From contig JAUXGM010000018.1 in the NCBI GenBank assembly GCA_030622125.1, positions 1 through 21,611 on the forward strand: a DNA stretch of 21,611 bases. The letters are read 5' to 3'. This document shows positions 1,936 to 11,295 of this stretch, piece by piece. The notes under the pieces were generated by a model, which saw only the letters and a program-made list of their open reading frames with translations, did not search any database and was not told the origin of the DNA. Origin of the DNA: a bacterium. Lineage in GTDB: Bacteria > AUK180. Both the position numbers and the translations under genes were made by a program. Within the stretch, counting starts at the first letter, position 1, and every line of letters begins with the position of its first letter.

Positions 1936-2899
1936 GATAAATTAACAGCATTTTATTTTTATATGATTCCCAATTTGGTTTTGCAGCAATAACCTCTATA
2001 TCCTCCGGTCCATACGAAAGTCCATGTAATTTCTGTAAAGAGTATGAAACGGGAGAATATCTTCCTTTCAGGTATTCCACATATCCACCGTAATCGGTTG
2101 CAATTACAGGGATACCATAATCAATTGCCTGAAAGATCGTAATTCCATACGCCTCTGAACTACTCAATTGAACATAACAATCAGAGGATTGCAAAAGAAG
2201 TTGTATATCCGTATCGCTATAATACTCATCAATGATCTTGATATTATTTAGGTCTTTATACTCATTCTTTATTTGTGTTACCGACTCTTCCCAATGCTTC
2301 AATTTTCCCGATCTTTTTTCCGGAAGGGTTTTCAATATAAATTCTACTTTTTCATTATTTCCAAATGCCTCCAAAAAACCATGCAGCATAAAAGAGATAT
2401 TTTTTCGTTTATGCGGGGTTGCTATTGAAAGAAATGTAAATTTTTCTTTTTTTCCTTTGCCATTCTCTTTCAATATTTCATAAGGAAGAGGTTCAACCGT
2501 TATTATTTTTTTTACTCCGGATCTTATACAGAGCTCCTTTACAAAATTGGAAGGTACCGTTAAAAGATCAAGATATTTGTTTATATTTTCTACCCAGATA
2601 TTTGGTAATGGATAGGTCTCATATACCAATATTCCTATTTTATCTCGTCCATTTATGTTCTTGTAGAGAGAGGGGTGTATAAAAGCAATCTCTTTTTCCG
2701 CAACATAATTTCGGGGAACGATCCTTTCTCTCAATTCATCACTTAACGGAAAATTGGGATCGAAACCGATACCTTTTTTCATTTTAATCCCAAAATCTAT
2801 ATTTTTGCGGATCATTTTTGCAGCATACTGTCTTAAAATATATGACCATGAGTAATAGGATTGGAACATGCCGTAAAGAACTACTTTTGGAGAGTTCAT
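1910..2899 (-). CDS. GT4-type glycosyltransferase
   Basis: A GT-B fold glycosyltransferase of 329 residues with a GT4-like C-terminal half. FTFLSIATPHKRKNISFMLHGF (154-175) is the loop where the nucleotide-sugar domain begins. SSSEAYGITIFQAIDYGIPVIATDYGGYVEYL (246-277) is the donor-binding signature. The second Glu of the usual E-x7-E pair is Gln257 here, with Glu249 kept. No signal peptide or membrane segment is seen, so it should act in the cytoplasm or at the membrane face. Its start overlaps the preceding membrane-protein gene in an ATGA arrangement and lpxC lies two genes on. This suggests a role in surface polysaccharide or glycolipid synthesis, but donor and acceptor are unknown. Confidence 0.85.
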   Translation of the reverse strand: MNSPKVVLYGMFQSYYSWSYILRQYAAKMIRKNIDFGIKMKKGIGFDPNFPLSDELRERIVPRNYVAEKEIAFIHPSLYKNINGRDKIGILVYETYPLPNIWVENINKYLDLLTVPSNFVKELCIRSGVKKIITVEPLPYEILKENGKGKKEKFTFLSIATPHKRKNISFMLHGFLEAFGNNEKVEFILKTLPEKRSGKLKHWEESVTQIKNEYKDLNNIKIIDEYYSDTDIQLLLQSSDCYVQLSSSEAYGITIFQAIDYGIPVIATDYGGYVEYLKGRYSPVSYSLQKLHGLSYGPEDIEVIAAKPNWESYKNKMLLIYHEKRNGSL

Positions 2900-3540
2900 A
2901 ATAACCCGAATATTGAAAAGATCCTTTCCCTGAACATATCAACTACCTCAATTAAAAGGGAAAGTCTTCCCATTATCGTATATCCGAAAGAAGCACCGAA
3001 TCCTATCATCATAAAAAAAATTCCGATATTTGCAATAAAATTTTCTCTCTTTTTATTCCCACGAACAATGAACAAAAAATAATACATTGTAGTTACAATT
3101 GCAATGAGAATAATAATATAATTAAATATCTCAAAAAGAGATAAATTACTGAAATCTACAACGGAGGAATTTATTTGTCTCATAATAGATGTTTCTATCC
3201 GTGGACCAATCTCTACACCTGCCCCTGTTCCGAGCAAAAAAGCGAGCGGGTATTTTGCAAGAAAGCCGTATTTCTTTGAAAAAGAGGTAAAGAATAATAA
3301 TCCCAAAAGACAGGGAAGAATAATATTCATTACTTGAAAAAAATTGTTTGTTCCGGTAGAGTAAAATAACGGTATCCATATTTTTTTTATAAATCCGGCA
3401 TTAAAAATAATTAAAAAACCGTACCCGGCGGAAACACCTACCAATAAGCGTTCCGTAAACTTAAAAAAATGATTATCTTTAAATACGAATGATAAGACCG
3501 ACAACATAAGAAGGATCACTATGATATTAATTATTCCCAT
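2896..3540 (-). CDS. polytopic membrane protein of unknown function (DUF6754 cassette)
   Basis: An unrecognised integral membrane protein of 214 residues from the chosen start. Hydrophobic stretches suggest about six or seven membrane segments, the first covering IINIIVILLMLSVLSFVF. A conserved-looking loop, LGTGAGVEIGPRIE, sits between two segments. The start at 3540 is preferred over the longer reading from 3573 because AAGGG lies 8 bases before this ATG and the overlap with the upstream gene drops from 47 to 14 bases. It ends in an ATGA overlap with the glycosyltransferase. Together with the next three upstream genes it forms a tight cassette, so the products probably work in one membrane complex. 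That is inference from gene order only. Confidence 0.75.
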   Translation of the reverse strand: MGIINIIVILLMLSVLSFVFKDNHFFKFTERLLVGVSAGYGFLIIFNAGFIKKIWIPLFYSTGTNNFFQVMNIILPCLLGLLFFTSFSKKYGFLAKYPLAFLLGTGAGVEIGPRIETSIMRQINSSVVDFSNLSLFEIFNYIIILIAIVTTMYYFLFIVRGNKKRENFIANIGIFFMMIGFGASFGYTIMGRLSLLIEVVDMFRERIFSIFGLL

Positions 3541-4333
3541 GCCTTTTTCCCTTAAAATACTCATAATTTCCAATTATTATCAGAATAAATATAAGAATAT
3601 GAGCAAATGTTTGTGCCGACATACCTCTTCTTGCTTTTGCGGACATATCAAGAAGTGTTTCATATTCAGCGGCACCACGAAGCCCACCCAATAAGCCCAA
3701 AAGCTGTCCGGAATTAAGATAGGGATAGTATTCGCTTGCCATAACAGCCGTTACTCCACTTGCCATCGGTACTCCATACTTTGTGTTTATGTATGTCAAT
3801 AAATCTAATGTACTGTTGCCGTCGGCTAAGTCGATCAAAAGGCTAAAATCCGAGATCTTTTGAATATTTTTAAAGATATTAAAATTTTCAAGATCTTTTC
3901 CGTCAAAGGTTTTTTTATAAACACTGTAAAAATCCTCGCCCATATCCTGTAATGCGGATTTATCCCCGGGAACAAATCCGAGATAGTAATAATCCGAATT
4001 TTCTTTTTTCTTCATTTTTCTCGCAATTTTTTTTATGGAAAGATAACCAAGATTGGTAACATTTGCATTTAGCGGATTCATATAAACAGGAATAATATCA
4101 TTTTTAAATAAATGATAGGTAAGAGCATCGAGCATCGGTAATAGTTCAGCTTTGGTAGAAGGGTCAAATGAAATAGTAACCACTATAAAACTACCCTTTT
4201 TTAAAGAATTTATCTCCTGAAAAAAGTTGATTACGGGCTCGGTCGGTTTAATTTTAAAAGAAATTCCGAATATCAAAGGAAGTATAATAACAAGAAGAAG
4301 TAAAAAATAAATTACCTCTTTTTTAATTTTCAT
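3527..4333 (-). CDS. bitopic membrane-anchored protein of unknown function (DUF6754 cassette)
   Basis: 268 residues with one N-terminal membrane segment or uncleaved signal (about 8-28) and one C-terminal segment (about 243-258). Between them is a soluble domain of ~210 residues, probably extracytoplasmic. This domain is rich in beta/alpha-like pattern (GSFIVVTISFD, DALTYHLFKNDIIPVYMNP, FSLLIDLADG) and ends in a Gly-rich stretch, LLGLLGGLRGAAEYE. I do not recognise a catalytic motif. It overlaps both neighbours (4 bases upstream in an ATGA junction, 14 bases downstream), so it is translationally coupled within the membrane cassette. Its role is unknown; a periplasmic sensor or scaffold subunit would fit the topology. 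Confidence 0.75.
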   Translation of the reverse strand: MKIKKEVIYFLLLLVIILPLIFGISFKIKPTEPVINFFQEINSLKKGSFIVVTISFDPSTKAELLPMLDALTYHLFKNDIIPVYMNPLNANVTNLGYLSIKKIARKMKKKENSDYYYLGFVPGDKSALQDMGEDFYSVYKKTFDGKDLENFNIFKNIQKISDFSLLIDLADGNSTLDLLTYINTKYGVPMASGVTAVMASEYYPYLNSGQLLGLLGGLRGAAEYETLLDMSAKARRGMSAQTFAHILIFILIIIGNYEYFKGKRHGNN

Positions 4334-4986
4334 TTAAGCCAACCCCTTTCAATACCGAATATTACCTTTAAGGAAGTTGAAATGATCCCCAGTGTAATAC
4401 CAAATATAAAAGCTCTTTTTATCCCGACATTAGGTACATTCAATATCCATTTTGTCCATGCGGGAAAATCAATAAGAGAAATAACGCTACCGTTTATATG
4501 CAGTGTGGTAATTTTTGCAATAAAATCTCCTAATGGAATTCTACCGATTATTACAATTGAGCCGGAAATTAAAAGTACGGTAGATGAAAAATTCTTTGCC
4601 CTAAATGCCCTGTATGCTGCTGAGGAAATGTAAAATGCAAGCAAAGAAAAAACGGTTGCTTGAAGAGGAACCTGTATATTCTGGTAAATAAAATCTACCG
4701 GCGTTTTTTCTCCGATCCCAAAGATAAGTCCTAATATAACTACCGTAAAAAATGAGATTATCGTTGTTAATGGAAAGATAGATTTAACTTTTTTAAATTT
4801 TAAATCCTGAAATTGTCTTGCAAGTAATGAGCGGATTGCAAGCAGCAATGCAAATGTTGATATAACAATACTCCAATCAAGAACATTCTTATAGATCAAA
4901 TCCAGTACCGGTATATTTAAAAAGTATTGCAATGTCATAATAACACCACCGATCAAAACAATGAGAAGAGCGATCAATTCTTTCAT
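4330..4986 (-). CDS. six-segment membrane protein of unknown function (DUF6754 cassette)
   Basis: 218 residues, almost entirely hydrophobic, with about six membrane segments (near 3-23, 37-54, 71-92, 107-127, 135-152 and 193-212). A short basic loop, RQFQDLKFKKVKS, after segment two is probably cytoplasmic. No transporter signature or charged residue cluster within a membrane segment stands out. Both ends overlap neighbours by 4 bases (ATGA), so it is made together with the DUF6754-type protein before it and the bitopic protein after it. Function unknown. Confidence 0.75.
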   Translation of the reverse strand: MKELIALLIVLIGGVIMTLQYFLNIPVLDLIYKNVLDWSIVISTFALLLAIRSLLARQFQDLKFKKVKSIFPLTTIISFFTVVILGLIFGIGEKTPVDFIYQNIQVPLQATVFSLLAFYISSAAYRAFRAKNFSSTVLLISGSIVIIGRIPLGDFIAKITTLHINGSVISLIDFPAWTKWILNVPNVGIKRAFIFGITLGIISTSLKVIFGIERGWLK

Positions 4987-5750
4987 AAATTTTTACTTAA
5001 AAGCCTTATAATTATATATAAAATTATGCCTATCTTTGCAATATCCTGCATTAAAACACCCTTTAAAGAATTCAAATCTTTTTTAATATATGCGGATGCT
5101 GTAAAAAGTTCTTCGCCCATAAGCAGATAGTCGCAGGAAGTAATAAAAAATGGTATCTGTGCGACAGAATCGGTGCCGGCGATCTGAATTGCACCGGTAG
5201 ATTGCCCATGTTCCGTTAAGATCAATGATTCCGCATAAAATGTTCCCATATAAAAGATTGCACCCGGTTTTACTTCGTTTGTTAAACTATTTATACTTGC
5301 CGCATAAGGAAATTGTGAATCGGTAATATAAAATATTTTACTTGAATTGATAAGCTCGGGGTTTCCAGCTCTTAGGAATCCGCTTTTTATCTCTTCACGA
5401 GCAGAGATCATAGTGATAGAATTATTATGAGGAGATATTATCGGTGTGCCGTAATTCGCAGCAACCTCTGCGATCTTACCGAGAACATTTATTCCGGCAA
5501 TGGCAGAAACAGCAGGAACCGGCTTTAAACCTGCTACATAGAGAATCGGACTTCCCATCTCTGTTGATCGTCCTATTGCTTCCTCTATTGCCTCTATCCC
5601 GCTTAATTTCCTTGTTGGTAAATGTTTGATTTTTAACAGATACGAAAGAGTAAATAAGATCAGAACGAATATAAAAAAAAGTAGGGATTCGCCTCTTCCC
5701 GATTTTATTATTCCATTACTATCGGCAAAGATATATGCATTGTTGAACAA
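4983..5750 (-). CDS. DUF6754-type membrane protein; probably starts upstream at a non-standard ATA
   Basis: I recognise the pattern of the DUF6754 family: EEAIGRSTEMGSPILYVAGL, then a domain containing AREEIKSGFLRAGNPE, SQFPYAAS, GTFYAESLILTEHGQSTGAIQIAGT and LLMGEELFTASAYI. A membrane segment near residues 23-39 precedes this domain and another ends the protein. Function is uncharacterised. The coordinates given use the only standard start, TTG, which has no Shine-Dalgarno. The same frame stays open upstream: AAGGAG at 5791-5796 sits 7 bases before an ATA codon at 5781-5783. Starting there gives 266 residues with an N-terminus KNKLIGFLCLLFNNAYIFA that looks like a signal peptide and overlaps the preceding foldase gene by 11 bases. 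The 3' end overlaps the next gene by 4 bases. It is the first gene of the four-gene membrane cassette. Confidence 0.8.
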   Translation of the reverse strand: MFNNAYIFADSNGIIKSGRGESLLFFIFVLILFTLSYLLKIKHLPTRKLSGIEAIEEAIGRSTEMGSPILYVAGLKPVPAVSAIAGINVLGKIAEVAANYGTPIISPHNNSITMISAREEIKSGFLRAGNPELINSSKIFYITDSQFPYAASINSLTNEVKPGAIFYMGTFYAESLILTEHGQSTGAIQIAGTDSVAQIPFFITSCDYLLMGEELFTASAYIKKDLNSLKGVLMQDIAKIGIILYIIIRLLSKNL

Positions 5751-5772: not shown

Positions 5773-6804
5773 TTATTTTTTATTCTCAGACTCCTTAATA
5801 GGATCCGCAGAGGTATTTCCCTTTACTGTTTCCTCAACTTTTTTCATATTACCTCTTACATATTCATTCAACGGTTGTAAATAGATATCTCTCTTGTAGG
5901 GCTTTAATATTTTTTGCTTTGTTGGAATATTCATTCTGCCGACCATCTTATCGTAATAAACACTTTTTACATAGTTATATCTTTCTTTGAATTTTTCTAC
6001 TTTTGAAACATAAATAATAACCCAGCCTTCCGGGGTTAAAAATGGTTCCGAAAAAGTCTTCGGCTTTAATTTTTCGAGATTATAATCATAGACCTTTGTG
6101 TTATCTCCAAGATTCGTCCAGCCTATCAACCCGCCGCTTGCGACCCATTGTGGATTTCCTTCGGTGTACATCCTGGCAACCTTAATAAAATCATTACCGT
6201 TCTTTAATAATTTATATGCTTCTTCTATCTTCTTTTTTGCTTTTAATACCTCTTCTTTGGTGCTGTTAGGAAAGCATTGGGTCTTTATTATATATACAAA
6301 ATAACGATCAATATCCAATCTATTTTCTTTGTAAAATCGCTTTATTGCCGTTTGCGACATATCTATTCGCTTATCAATTTCTATTGTAATGAGTTTCTTT
6401 ATTAAGTTTACTTCTGCTTGAATTTCATAGTGTTTCTTCAAGCGCCTCATTGCATTTATATAATCAGGCTCCCTATCATATCCTCTTTTTTTTGCAATAT
6501 AAACACCTATTTTTTGTTCTAATATTTTTGAGATCAATTTTTCCATTTCAGCCTGATCGGTCAGTATGATCGCTTTTTTATTAGGATAGTATAGATATAT
6601 CCAATCATAAACATCTTCTACGGTAACGATTATTCCATTTGCTGTTTTCCCAACTATGAGATCTTTTTTAATATCTTTGCTTGATGGATAATCATTTATA
6701 TCCAATCTTGTCATTTTCTCCGGTATTTCGCCCTCTTTCTTACATGCATAAGTAAATAATAATAAGAGCGTCAAAATGAGCATAAACATTTGTTTTGCTT
6801 TCAT
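5773..6804 (-). CDS. PpiC/parvulin-type peptidyl-prolyl isomerase, probable lipoprotein
   Basis: 343 residues. An N-terminal signal (KAKQMFMLILTLLLLFTYAC) ends at Cys21 in a loose lipobox, so a lipid-anchored periplasmic protein is likely. Residues ~55-160 form a helical SurA-like chaperone region. Residues ~167-271 form a parvulin domain, seen in the phrases AYKLLKNGNDFIKVARMYTE, SGGLIGW and EPFLTPEGWVIIYVSKVE. The usual active-site His at the first strand is missing (RYFVYIIK instead of xxSHILI), so isomerase activity is doubtful and a chaperone role is more likely. Its ATG directly follows the stop of the nuclease-GGDEF gene. The coding end carries the Shine-Dalgarno of the DUF6754-type gene. 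It probably folds or delivers envelope proteins. Confidence 0.85.
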   Translation of the reverse strand: MKAKQMFMLILTLLLLFTYACKKEGEIPEKMTRLDINDYPSSKDIKKDLIVGKTANGIIVTVEDVYDWIYLYYPNKKAIILTDQAEMEKLISKILEQKIGVYIAKKRGYDREPDYINAMRRLKKHYEIQAEVNLIKKLITIEIDKRIDMSQTAIKRFYKENRLDIDRYFVYIIKTQCFPNSTKEEVLKAKKKIEEAYKLLKNGNDFIKVARMYTEGNPQWVASGGLIGWTNLGDNTKVYDYNLEKLKPKTFSEPFLTPEGWVIIYVSKVEKFKERYNYVKSVYYDKMVGRMNIPTKQKILKPYKRDIYLQPLNEYVRGNMKKVEETVKGNTSADPIKESENKK

Positions 6805-8370
6805 TTATTTCTCCTTTGTATAAATATTTATTTGATTTTTGCCATTAGTTTTTGCTCTATATAGTGCTTTATCACAATTTTCAATGAGATCTATCTTGTT
6901 CTTCCCATCGTTCGGATATGATACTACGCCTCCGGAAACAGTAATATTAATCTTTTTGTCGTCAATTGAATAAAATGTTGTTTTTTCCAGTTCTTTTCTT
7001 ACCCTTTCCGCTACGGTGAACATCATCTTTTTACTGACATTTTTCATTAAAACGGCAAATTCTTCGCCACCGTATCTTGATATAATATCGCCTGTTGATA
7101 GGCGAGTATTTTTTCTTAATATGTCTGCATATCCAATAAGAACAATATCTCCCGTTTGATGACCATAAGCATCATTTACATTTTTAAATTTGTCAAGATC
7201 AAAGATTATCATTGAAAATTTATCATTATTTTTAATGAGATCCCCAATATAATTTTTGAGATAGGTCTGATGATAAAAATCAGTCATTCTATCCGTATTT
7301 GCCTTATGATAGAGTATTGCATTATTTAAAAAAATTCCTGCCTGTGAAAGAAATGATTCAATGATCGCTTCTTTTTTTAACGACAAATTCGGCATATTAT
7401 ATACTTTTAGTACGGCAATATCTTCTATGCCGTTGTTAATAAGATATTTATCTTCACCATCGATCTTTTTCTTGATATTTTTTGTTTTATCAAGAAGTAT
7501 AAGCTTGGCATCTGAGCAATTTGATAATATTTTAAAATTGGTAGTAATATTTTTTATTAACTTCTCGGTATTTAAAACACCGGAAAGATCTCTAATAATC
7601 CCATTTAATTGGTATAATTCTCCCAATATCGGATCATCATTTACCACATTTTTAAGTTCATCTTCTATATATGGACAGATTACTTTGAAATCACAAAATC
7701 TACAGTGACTGCCCGAATTATGAGAAAATCCATTCTTTTTTGAGTAGATTAATTTGTTATTAACTTTTTTTACTATTTCTTTTATCTTTTCGTTGCTTGG
7801 CAATTCTTCTCTTTTAATAATTAATTCTTTCCCAATTGTTAGATTTTGCCATACTACCGATTTCACCGCTTTTTTAAATTTCTCTTCCACTAATATTCGG
7901 TATAGACCTAATTGAATATCATTTTGAAGTTCAATATCACTTGGAAAATATGTTCCTGTTTTATAATCAACAATGGTAAGAAGATCGTCATCAATATCGA
8001 TTCTATCAATCATAACATAAAAATCATAGCCTGCCCATTTCACTTTTACGGTCTCATTATTTCGATAGACCTTTCCAAAACTATTGCTCTTATTAAGATA
8101 ATCATTAATCGCATTATTTCCTTTTTCTATAATCTCTCTATCGGTTATACCAAATTGCACTGCGAGAACAGTTATTACTTTTCTTATATATTTTGGTTTC
8201 TCCGACCATTCATTTTCAAGTATCTTGAAAAGGGATTGATGGATCAAATTTGAATATGTGGCTTTGATGTTATTTTGTTTATAAACATTTCCGAGCTGTT
8301 GAACATAATGATATTTATATTTTAAGGGGCACTGCAAATAAGTTTTTAAGCTGCTTGCCGATATTCTCAT
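6805..8370 (-). CDS. fusion protein: Fe-S PD-(D/E)XK (Cas4/AddB-like) nuclease domain + GAF-like region + GGDEF domain
   Basis: 521 residues in one open frame (start 8370, ATGA overlap with the MEMO gene; the reading from 8391 adds 7 residues). Residues ~1-240 match the PDDEXK_1 / RecB-type nuclease fold: SASSLKTYLQCPLKYKY with Cys14, His44, Asp122 in MIDRID, then Asp135 and Lys137 in IVDYKTG, and Gln153/Tyr157 in QLGLY. Cys223, Cys226 and Cys232 (HCRFCDFKVIC) complete a Cas4/AddB-style 4Fe-4S set with Cys14. Residues ~250-355 look like a GAF-type sensory region with helical linkers. Residues ~385-521 are a GGDEF domain with IIFDLDKFKNVND and intact GGEEF (434-438), so diguanylate cyclase activity is expected. 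The RxxD inhibitory site is absent (STGD). The fusion couples DNA cleavage or an Fe-S sensor to cyclic-di-GMP, an arrangement I do not know from characterised proteins. Confidence 0.88.
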   Translation of the reverse strand: MRISASSLKTYLQCPLKYKYHYVQQLGNVYKQNNIKATYSNLIHQSLFKILENEWSEKPKYIRKVITVLAVQFGITDREIIEKGNNAINDYLNKSNSFGKVYRNNETVKVKWAGYDFYVMIDRIDIDDDLLTIVDYKTGTYFPSDIELQNDIQLGLYRILVEEKFKKAVKSVVWQNLTIGKELIIKREELPSNEKIKEIVKKVNNKLIYSKKNGFSHNSGSHCRFCDFKVICPYIEDELKNVVNDDPILGELYQLNGIIRDLSGVLNTEKLIKNITTNFKILSNCSDAKLILLDKTKNIKKKIDGEDKYLINNGIEDIAVLKVYNMPNLSLKKEAIIESFLSQAGIFLNNAILYHKANTDRMTDFYHQTYLKNYIGDLIKNNDKFSMIIFDLDKFKNVNDAYGHQTGDIVLIGYADILRKNTRLSTGDIISRYGGEEFAVLMKNVSKKMMFTVAERVRKELEKTTFYSIDDKKINITVSGGVVSYPNDGKNKIDLIENCDKALYRAKTNGKNQINIYTKEK

Positions 8371-9173
8371 TTTTTGAATAGAATGCTGCAATAGGCAACA
8401 ACCTCGGAATTATCACCGGTTACCTCACCTGATGATGTATATTCAACAAGTTCCGGTACCCATTTCAGTTCTTTTGCAAGATACAATAACACATATATCG
8501 GTCCGCTGCCGCAGATTGAAATATTGTTTTCCTTTACGGTAGTCAAAAAACCATCATAATCAAGTGCCATAATATTATCTATCGCTTTAAAATCAACCTT
8601 TTTAGCATACTCATAAGGGACATAATGTGAAAAATCACTGCTTGCAATAATCCCTATCTTCTTTGAGGATTTCATAATTACTTCTAACAAAATTTTTCCA
8701 ACTTTCAAGAGATTTTCCCGTTTGTAATCCCACATTGAAAGCGGAACGATCTTAAAATCACTGCCATAATTTTCTATCATCAAAGGAAGTTCTACCTCTA
8801 TTGAATGTTCCCTATTATGAGCAGCATTATCGCTCCTTATAATATTGCAGTTTTTTAATATACCCTGTGTAAGTTCACTATCAATATCGATCTCACCGTT
8901 TGGCAGAAGCCATTTTGAATCCGGTTCATAGAGGGATATAGGTTTCCCAAAACCATTATGATTAGGACCGATTATTATAAATGTATCCGCTTTTTCTGTT
9001 CTTTTCAATGCCTTAACAGCTGTTTTTCCCGAATAGATCCATCCTGCATGCGGAATTATACAACCAATTCCATTATTTAACTTTTGCCCCTCAACAGAAT
9101 TATAAAATTTTGAAATTTCTCTTTTATTAAATGGATAAAAAGCTCCCGCGACAATAGGCTGCCTTATAACCAT
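8367..9173 (-). CDS. amrB: MEMO1 family protein (AmmeMemoRadiSam system protein B)
   Basis: 268 residues, full length for the MEMO/extradiol-dioxygenase-like family. Family motifs are all present: PHAGWIYSG (His42), GPNHNG (His72), NREHSIEVELP (His123), ASSDFSHY (His183) and ISICGSGP (Cys221). His and Cys residues at the positions of His42, His72 and Cys221 bind metal in human MEMO1. In bacteria this protein usually sits beside an AMMECR1 protein and a radical SAM enzyme; neither is in this window, so it is an orphan here. The biochemical role of the bacterial system is unsettled. It is co-transcribed with cheC before it (3-base gap) and the nuclease-GGDEF gene after it (4-base overlap). The symbol follows the AmmeMemoRadiSam naming. 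Confidence 0.9.
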   Translation of the reverse strand: MVIRQPIVAGAFYPFNKREISKFYNSVEGQKLNNGIGCIIPHAGWIYSGKTAVKALKRTEKADTFIIIGPNHNGFGKPISLYEPDSKWLLPNGEIDIDSELTQGILKNCNIIRSDNAAHNREHSIEVELPLMIENYGSDFKIVPLSMWDYKRENLLKVGKILLEVIMKSSKKIGIIASSDFSHYVPYEYAKKVDFKAIDNIMALDYDGFLTTVKENNISICGSGPIYVLLYLAKELKWVPELVEYTSSGEVTGDNSEVVAYCSILFKK

Positions 9174-9176
9174 TTT

Positions 9177-9785
9177 TTATACCTTCATTGCTTCAAATAT
9201 TAATTCCAAACTGTTCTTGTTCGGAAAAAGAAAAAAATCACCGGAAATCTTTCTTTCATCACTTACAAGTTCGGTTTCTATCCATAATCCATTTTGAATT
9301 ACACCGGTAAAATGGACGGCAAAATAGGTTAAAATACCATTCAAAGAATCAATTGAGATCAATGGTATGGATGGTAAGAGTACGCCGTCAATAATCTGAG
9401 AGACCGCATTTAAATACGATGCTGCGAGAATGTTTCCAACTTCTTTTAATGCCGATTCTTCTACTTCCTTTATGATAGTAATACTTCCATTTTTTTTACC
9501 TAAAAGTATTTCCGATAATCTTAGAGCATTGGAATATTCAAAAAACAGCAGGATCTTTCCTTTAAGTTTTCCATATAAATTGGTATAAATACCAATGCCG
9601 GATTTATTCTTGAATTTTTTCCGCATTGCAAGCTTTTCGGGATCAATAATTTGTACCTTCGGAACAGTCATTTTAATTTTATGATGAACCATTTGAGAAA
9701 GAGCGGTCGCAGCGTGTGCGGCACCGATATTTCCTAATTCCCTTAAAGCATCTTTTTGTTTTTCATTTAGATTTTTGACATTCAT
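9177..9785 (-). CDS. cheC: CheC-family CheY-P phosphatase
   Basis: 202 residues, typical CheC length. Both copies of the active-site signature (D/S)-x3-E-x2-N-x22-P are intact: Asp12, Glu16, Asn19, Pro42 and Ser111, Glu115, Asn118, Pro141. This predicts a two-site phosphatase acting on a phosphorylated response regulator of the CheY type, in the cytoplasm. CheC normally pairs with CheD, but no cheD, cheY, cheA or receptor gene is visible nearby. The partner must be elsewhere, or the phosphatase serves another response regulator. Its start overlaps the end of the SurA-like gene by 4 bases. The nearby GGDEF gene hints at a motility or surface-lifestyle link. Confidence 0.9.
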   Translation of the reverse strand: MNVKNLNEKQKDALRELGNIGAAHAATALSQMVHHKIKMTVPKVQIIDPEKLAMRKKFKNKSGIGIYTNLYGKLKGKILLFFEYSNALRLSEILLGKKNGSITIIKEVEESALKEVGNILAASYLNAVSQIIDGVLLPSIPLISIDSLNGILTYFAVHFTGVIQNGLWIETELVSDERKISGDFFLFPNKNSLELIFEAMKV

Positions 9786-10960
9786 TTGTAAACCTTTAAA
9801 TAATTTTCCTTTTTTGCGGTAAGGATCAATTTATCGTATCTTTCTTTAAACTTTTTATTGTATAATTCCTGATATATCCTGGTATAAACACCTCCGACAT
9901 CTTCATAAATTTTATCATTAACGCTAAGTAATTTAACGATATAATATCCTTTTTGTGCTTTTATTACTTTTAAATCACCAGGATTTAAATTTTCAAATTC
10001 CTTTTGCAGTCCTTTTTTAATGATTGCCGGCAATGTAATTTTACCCGAAGGTAAAAGTTCCTCGGTGTCATTATCTGATTTTGATATAAGATTTTCAAAA
10101 CCGATCCCTTCCTTGTATGCTTTCATTATATCATTTACACTTTTTTCGGCTTTTAAAAATCCCTTATTGGAAGAACGGTACGGGATTGTGTAATAGATAA
10201 CATTCGGCTCAAAACTATCCCATTTTATGATCTTGTAAAAAGAAAGTCCCTTTTTATTAAAGGTATAATTCGTATATTTACATTTCTTATCAAAAAGTGG
10301 TTTTTGGTCCTCGGTTAGGTATTCCAGATAAAGCGGATTAAATTCTTTCTTTATTAACTCTTTTTTTATCTTGTACCCTTTTTTTATTTTGTTATACTCC
10401 GATAACATGCCTTCCTTGTCAACGGCAGAAGTATATATGGAATCAATAGTATAAGTTTTCGGCAATTTTAAATATTTTTCCTTATTATTTTCATAATATT
10501 TTCCTACCTCACCGGTAGAAACGGATATCTTTTTTTTAATCTTATCTTCAATGATCTTTTCTTTTAAGAATTGATTTTTTATCTGTTTCCGATAATTTTC
10601 TTTCAAACCGGCAAGGGTAAGTCCTTCATTTTTCAATGCCTTCATAAACGCTTCATCGGTTGGGAACTGTGATCTTTGATTTGCAATGGTTTGATCAATA
10701 TTATAATCGATCTCCTGATCTACGATCTCATATTCTCTATCCTTAGCCGACGCAATGATCAATTGTTCTTCAATGAGTTTATTTAATACATCTTCATATT
10801 TTAAATTGTGCGCTTTGTCAAATAAAATGTAGATATTTATATCAAAGTCCGTGATTATTTCGTTATTTATTATAGCGACAATCTTATTTACAGTTTCACT
10901 GTATGAAATTACACTTAAAAAAACAGCAATAATGATCAGAAATGTTTTTATTTTTTTCAT
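9782..10960 (-). CDS. SurA-like periplasmic chaperone / peptidyl-prolyl isomerase
   Basis: 392 residues with a clean signal peptide (KKIKTFLIIIAVFLSVISYS, cleavage near 20-22). The SurA N-terminal chaperone region follows: VNKIVAIINNEIITDFDI and then long helices (24-150). The C-terminal part (~270-355) resembles a parvulin domain (AYKEGIGFENLISKSDND, LPSGKITLPAIIKKGLQKEFENLNPGDL, KGYYIVKLLSV), but the first strand reads VIYYTIPYR without the usual His. Catalysis is therefore doubtful. SurA proteins escort outer-membrane proteins through the periplasm. The gene overlaps both neighbours by 4 bases. A second member of the superfamily (5773-6804) lies four genes further on in the same run, so the operon supplies two foldases. 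Confidence 0.85.
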   Translation of the reverse strand: MKKIKTFLIIIAVFLSVISYSETVNKIVAIINNEIITDFDINIYILFDKAHNLKYEDVLNKLIEEQLIIASAKDREYEIVDQEIDYNIDQTIANQRSQFPTDEAFMKALKNEGLTLAGLKENYRKQIKNQFLKEKIIEDKIKKKISVSTGEVGKYYENNKEKYLKLPKTYTIDSIYTSAVDKEGMLSEYNKIKKGYKIKKELIKKEFNPLYLEYLTEDQKPLFDKKCKYTNYTFNKKGLSFYKIIKWDSFEPNVIYYTIPYRSSNKGFLKAEKSVNDIMKAYKEGIGFENLISKSDNDTEELLPSGKITLPAIIKKGLQKEFENLNPGDLKVIKAQKGYYIVKLLSVNDKIYEDVGGVYTRIYQELYNKKFKERYDKLILTAKKENYLKVYK

Positions 10961-11295
10961 TTTTTTCTCCCGATTTCATAGACAGAAGCCTCTATCGTTC
11001 TATCAAGTAAACTTTCATCTATTTTCTTTTCTTTTTCCTTTTTTAAAATTTCTCTTGCAATATTCATAGCAATTTCTTTTTTCTTTTTTCCTTTTATGTG
11101 CGGACTACTATTTTTTGTGATCTGTTCCGCAATCTTAACAGAAAGAAGAGCTGCCTTTAAATATCTATCCGACATAGATTGACCGAATTTTTTTTTAATT
11201 ATTCCTGCAAGATAAAAAATTAAAAATGTTATCAGTACCGTAAATGCCGTTTGAAAAATATTTTGTAATATAACTTGCCAATCCATATCTATCAT
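10957..11295 (-). CDS. small membrane protein, LL-H holin-like pattern
   Basis: 112 residues: one N-terminal membrane segment (about 9-32, LQNIFQTAFTVLITFLIFYLAGII), then a basic, helical cytoplasmic tail. The tail pattern, with AALLSVKIAEQITKN, KGKKKKEIAMNIAREILKK and LLDRTIEASVYEIGRKK, resembles the phage LL-H holin family (Holin_LLH), which is also seen in non-phage genes. There are no phage genes nearby and it sits between phosphofructokinase and surA-like genes with 4-base overlaps. A membrane-associated housekeeping role is therefore more likely than lysis. The family assignment is tentative. Confidence 0.6.
   Translation of the reverse strand: MIDMDWQVILQNIFQTAFTVLITFLIFYLAGIIKKKFGQSMSDRYLKAALLSVKIAEQITKNSSPHIKGKKKKEIAMNIAREILKKEKEKKIDESLLDRTIEASVYEIGRKK

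Follow-up and report, generated by a model that had tools for sequence, protein, structure and literature searches.

A conserved fusion of a PD-(D/E)XK nuclease fold with GAF and GGDEF domains, a candidate sensory diguanylate cyclase

The fusion gene and its neighbours

The window, by which we mean the whole 21,611-nucleotide stretch of DNA that was analysed, carries on its minus strand a gene (6805..8370; ATG at 8370, TAA at 6805-6807) whose 521-residue product joins a PD-(D/E)XK nuclease domain, a GAF domain and a GGDEF domain. The minus-strand frame to which it belongs, 6805..8391, is uninterrupted throughout, and relatives share the start at 8370, an ATG (M-x-I-S), in agreement with an earlier, sequence-only reading that had placed the nuclease, a GAF-like region and a GGEEF motif in one frame with this start. 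Residues are numbered here from that ATG, and Pfam envelopes are given on the form that starts at a TTG.

The start codon overlaps the stop of the gene directly upstream as ATGA. This neighbour (8367..9173, minus strand) encodes a Memo-like protein (PF01875, E 9.2e-63) and lies next to a gene for a CheC-like protein (9177..9785, minus strand; PF04509, E 4.9e-19), while the next gene downstream (5773..6804, minus strand), beginning at 6804 straight after the fusion stop, encodes a PpiC-type peptidyl-prolyl isomerase that is predicted to be a lipoprotein (PF00639, E 9.6e-12). The window neighbours are housekeeping and signalling genes; no DNA-repair gene was found in the operon (PFK, SurA-like, CheC-like, Memo, PpiC, DUF6754), and no cas or argonaute gene was noted among the neighbours in the window. 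In each of the two families of the class the CheC-like and Memo genes (8367-9785) stay near the fusion although the remainder of the operon differs. Four consecutive membrane-type genes (window 2896-5750) are kept within the family, one being DUF6754 and the other three (2896-3573, 3527-4333 and 4330-4986) having no Pfam family, and a 112-residue holin-like protein (PF09682, E 2e-8) is encoded at 10957-11295 in an otherwise housekeeping operon.

Domain architecture of the fusion protein

Residues 1-238 (7657..8370, minus strand) constitute a predicted Fe-S-type nuclease domain of the RecB/AddB/Cas4-like kind, with a match to PF12705 (E 3.5e-26; 93.1 bits, cut-off 22) at residues 9-240 in TTG-start numbering. 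The AF2 model covers residues 1-361 and was computed from 31 sequences, among them 28 viral nuclease relatives and two homologues taken from public contigs. Its mean pLDDT is 82.9, but only 59-73 at residues 221-260, such that the joint between nuclease and GAF domains is poorly predicted. When the model was compared with known structures using VIA-align, residues 1-235 matched AdnA with Z 21.1 (rmsd 2.5, 222 residues aligned), and residues 1-238 matched ACE1 with Z 18.1 and AddB with Z 17.1 (rmsd 2.7 over 230). ACE1, an Argonaute-associated Cas4 family protein (PDB 9iac, 9iab), is the closest hit to the domain both in Foldseek and among PDB sequences. On this model, the N-terminal domain has the nuclease fold that had been proposed for it.

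The four cysteines expected of such a domain are present in the order C...C-x2-C-x5-C, with C14 at 8329..8331 and the triplet C223-x2-C226-x5-C232 at 7675..7704 (both minus strand). So is a complete catalytic set, comprising H44 (8239-8241, minus strand) and the active site D122 ... D135-x-K137 (7960..8007, minus strand), and the cysteines and D...D-x-K residues named in the sequence-only reading are thus all in place. We infer that the domain carries an Fe-S cluster, binds DNA and has nuclease activity; the cysteines may be purely structural.

Two more specific identities were considered for this domain and rejected. The TIGR00372 equivalog model for CRISPR Cas4 scores 29.9 bits, far below its cut-off of 65, and AddB has a helicase-like N-terminal part followed by a C-terminal nuclease, whereas here the nuclease occupies the N-terminus from residue 1, with the GAF and GGDEF domains behind it. 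PADLOC matches reflect weak Cas4/DruK nuclease-fold similarity and do not sustain a defence reading. No defence or CRISPR link of the fusion was found in the Cas4 model score or among the window neighbours.

The region that follows, residues 244-361 (7288..7641, minus strand), has the predicted structure of a small GAF domain, matching those of PDE6 (Z 11.7), PDE2A (Z 11.4), KdpD (Z 10.0), PDE5A (Z within 9.9-11.7) and a phytochrome-linked diguanylyl cyclase (Z 9.4) by VIA-align on the AF2 model. The window protein itself has no Pfam GAF match, and relatives have weak ones; the earlier description of a GAF-like region holds on the structural matches, with Z of 9-12.

The C-terminal domain is a GGDEF diguanylate cyclase domain (6832..7302, minus strand), with a PF00990 match (E 1.3e-38) of 132.8 bits against a cut-off of 23.8 over residues 364-520 of the TTG-start form, and TIGR00254 also over its cut-off. 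AF2 did not fold this part well, but the PF00990 match is enough for its identity. The metal and substrate residues D391, N399 and D400 and the GGEEF motif (7057..7071, minus strand) are present, the domain is predicted to be an active cyclase, and the earlier reading of an intact domain stands. Just upstream of the motif the I-site, an optional feature of such cyclases, reads RLSTGD and not RxxD, with a two-residue insertion that is specific to the window's family (window 7057-7100). The RxxD motif is kept in the other family of the class and in the G219 phylum, and is absent in the G215 phylum. The sequence-only reading had concluded that product feedback of the usual kind is missing; this holds for the window protein and its family and fails for the architecture, the missing feedback site being a quirk of one family.

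Distribution, conservation and origin

The sequence-only reading had raised the possibility that relatives lack the fusion; it is present in all seven genomes of the class that were examined, and is genuine. Five genomes outside the class also carry it, three in one family of the G219 phylum (a phylum of 16 genomes) and two in the G215 phylum (2/2 genomes, G215 and G074), giving 12 genomes in three phylum-level groups with four neighbourhoods. About 780 other genomes, among them 398 sampled from one large phylum, were covered by a profile search for homologous fusions, with none among the matches listed. The sequences are MAG data, and three copies are broken (G002 and G005 by contig ends, G006 by a run of N within the coding sequence), as might be expected of an assembly or frameshift artefact. 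Nine frames, however, are uninterrupted, in three lineages and separate assemblies, such that an artefact is vanishingly improbable and can be regarded as already refuted. A separate-gene model for G006 was rejected, the frame there being split by the N run.

Within the class, the window's family (five genomes) has the CheC-like and Memo genes, then the fusion, then the PpiC lipoprotein and DUF6754 genes, wherever the contig was read and is long enough. In the second family (two genomes) Memo, and in G005 also the CheC-like gene, lies upstream, an RNase E/G-like gene precedes the fusion, and a TrmFO-like gene follows it in G006, the RNase E/G-like and TrmFO-like genes being named by reading their sequences and not by profile. 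The G219-phylum fusions sit between MltG-like and TldD-like genes (also named by reading), and downstream of the fusions in G215 and G074 are a Wzy_C gene, a histidine kinase and an NtrC-type regulator, with an HD-GYP gene two genes upstream in G215.

The nuclease and GAF part of the window protein has no match among plasmids and phages, and with full-length queries no plasmid (among the best 5000) or phage record has one place covering 80% of the query. A nuclease and GAF query of the G219 type matches phage exonucleases, the single case of 82% cover corresponding to two adjacent phage genes. No GGDEF domain was found in the viral nuclease ORFs retrieved, nor in another twelve long frames that match PDDEXK, which are tandem nucleases or other long frames. 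The top viral structure match is an unnamed 609-residue protein (BFVD A0A3Q9JJK9) aligned over the nuclease and GAF parts; with an rmsd of 21.7 it is not one rigid match, and it is a possible viral relative of the architecture.

We compared ten full or near-full fusion proteins, the others being 23-48% identical to that of the window. The nuclease part has few invariant positions, and these include the four cysteines, D122 and Y157. H44 and D135 are each present in nine of the ten and K137 in eight, the exceptions being the G215-phylum proteins (L159 1489-3039 and L163 1501-3087), in which D135-x-K137 is E-x-H in one, and K is replaced by V and H44 by R in the other. Both of these retain the four cysteines and a cyclase motif (GGEEF, GGEEM), and the full catalytic set is kept in 10 of the 12 fusion genomes, those of the class and of the G219 phylum. 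The persistence of cysteines and cyclase motif where D-x-K has decayed suggests that cutting is dispensable for whatever is selected, although that lineage might instead have taken on an entirely different function. Purifying selection acts on all three domains, with dN/dS of 0.15 for the nuclease, 0.11 for GAF and 0.11 for GGDEF in one close pair with few changes (L008/L009).

The closest stand-alone nuclease relatives are single-domain proteins of 262 residues in G134 (L088/L295) and 321 residues in G660 (L283), genomes in which no fusion was found. Fused nuclease domains cluster in trees, with 3 changes compared with 11.3 for shuffled labels. The GGDEF tree is compatible with one origin (p-AU 0.50); in the nuclease tree a fused-only clade is marginally rejected (p 0.044) and a clade of fusions together with the stand-alone G134 protein is kept (p 0.26). 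These trees would fit either one origin of the fusion or more.

Possible functions of the fusion

The window's genome has seven GGDEF, five HD-GYP and two PilZ matches, and both PilZ effectors and HD-GYP phosphodiesterases are found in 7/7 genomes of the class; with GGDEF, HD-GYP and PilZ present, the cell has the means to synthesise c-di-GMP, break it down and respond to it. The same genome encodes two side-by-side long PDDEXK frames resembling AddB and AddA (named by length and reading) and, immediately behind a ZapA-like gene, a 488-residue protein whose two halves are both of PD-(D/E)XK type (L012 739-2205, contig 67), similar tandem-nuclease frames occurring in relatives and in other phyla. 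Given the AddB/AddA-like pair and the tandem nuclease, the fusion is unlikely to be the general end-processing nuclease of the cell.

The reading that we favour, tentatively and at a little short of an even chance, is that the protein is a cytoplasmic diguanylate cyclase whose input is an Fe-S PD-(D/E)XK domain of the AddB/AdnA/COG2887 kind that senses DNA ends or single-stranded DNA. The Fe-S domain would bind such DNA and, in the window's protein and most lineages, would probably cut it too; binding would alter the nuclease domain and the helices joining it to GAF, and the GAF dimer would relay the change to the GGDEF domains so as to raise or lower c-di-GMP. An input-GAF-GGDEF order is that of ordinary regulated cyclases, and this order, the c-di-GMP machinery, and the decay of the active site with the cysteines kept together favour the nuclease fold as sensory input. 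The proteins that the input domain resembles in fold (AdnA, AddB, Dna2, Cas4) are Fe-S nucleases acting on DNA ends or on single-stranded DNA. The AddB cluster has a role similar to that in human DNA2. The tunnel in which human DNA2 binds DNA owes its shape to the Fe-S cluster and is distorted when the cluster is lost (PMC7311471).

It is because the cluster holds the DNA-binding architecture in this fold that DNA sensing is preferred, with redox sensing second. A sensor of redox state or of O2/NO, in which oxidation or loss of the cluster controls the cyclase and the nuclease fold serves only as a scaffold, would explain why the four cysteines are foremost among the functional side chains that the nuclease domain retains in all lineages, even without an active site. 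We consider it unlikely, in that the full catalytic set kept in most genomes would be needless for a pure redox sensor, and the human DNA2 cluster is structural, the redox response being independent of it (PMC7311471). The reverse direction of control, a working nuclease with cutting switched by its own c-di-GMP or GGDEF state, agrees with the retention of all nuclease catalytic residues at about 22-30% identity between lineages and with the purifying selection on the nuclease part. It sits poorly, however, with the two genomes in which the fusion persists although its nuclease site is ruined, with the lack of a product-binding I-site in the window protein, and with the usual position of input domains N-terminal to GGDEF, and we regard it as improbable. 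The sequence-only reading had offered both a DNA- or redox-gated cyclase and a nuclease gated by c-di-GMP synthesis, and the former is favoured over the latter since one lineage has lost the nuclease site and kept the cysteines and cyclase. Equally improbable in our estimation is that a repair-type nuclease sits on one polypeptide with a cyclase merely for co-expression or localisation, with no allostery. Stand-alone nuclease relatives are common in housekeeping contexts and no computation here shows coupling, but the fusion is kept in every genome of the class despite operon reshuffling, and a GAF transmitter domain stands between nuclease and cyclase.

Each half of the protein has known counterparts. 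AddB, AdnA, Dna2 and stand-alone RecB-like (COG2887-type) nucleases share the fold, D...D-x-K and the four-cysteine pattern but are parts of helicase-nucleases or stand alone, and we know of none joined to a cyclase. ACE1 and CRISPR Cas4, as the best structure and PDB-sequence match of the nuclease domain, differ in the Cas4 model score and in the gene neighbourhood. Cyclases of the sensor-GAF-GGDEF type (e.g. phytochrome-linked) have the same output half and domain order, whereas here a nuclease fold takes the input position. Type III CRISPR Cas10 also has a nuclease-type domain and a GGDEF-related Palm in one chain (PMC3150331), but the former is HD and not PD-(D/E)XK, and the Palm is of another family and lies within an RNA-guided complex. 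No description of a PD-(D/E)XK-GAF-GGDEF architecture was found in the open-licence papers searched, and we provisionally regard the pairing as undescribed. Few GGDEF proteins have a known signal, and to our knowledge there is no GGDEF protein whose own domain reads broken DNA.

The nearest functional analogue is DisA, a DNA-scanning diadenylate cyclase and the precedent for DNA-structure-gated cyclic-dinucleotide synthesis, in which a synthase carries a DNA-structure-binding module and the state of DNA sets the output, as in the logic proposed here (PMC6547438, PMC8227628); DisA is inhibited by its DNA ligand (PMC8227628). The fusion is not a DisA, which makes c-di-AMP with an unrelated cyclase domain and DNA-binding module and has no Fe-S nuclease; there is no DAC (DisA_N) family among the Pfam matches up to E 1. 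It is possible, if doubtful, that the fusion does for c-di-GMP what DisA does for c-di-AMP. An Fe-S nuclease fold would then have been turned into a detector of DNA damage with direct control over c-di-GMP synthesis, and one lineage would have given up cutting and gone on sensing. If so, it would be a direct protein link from DNA integrity to the c-di-GMP lifestyle switch. The occurrence of intact- and decayed-site lineages within one architecture makes the question of sensor or enzyme directly testable, and the fusion, kept in three deep bacterial lineages, may be an undescribed sensor that turns the state of DNA (or redox state) into a c-di-GMP signal.
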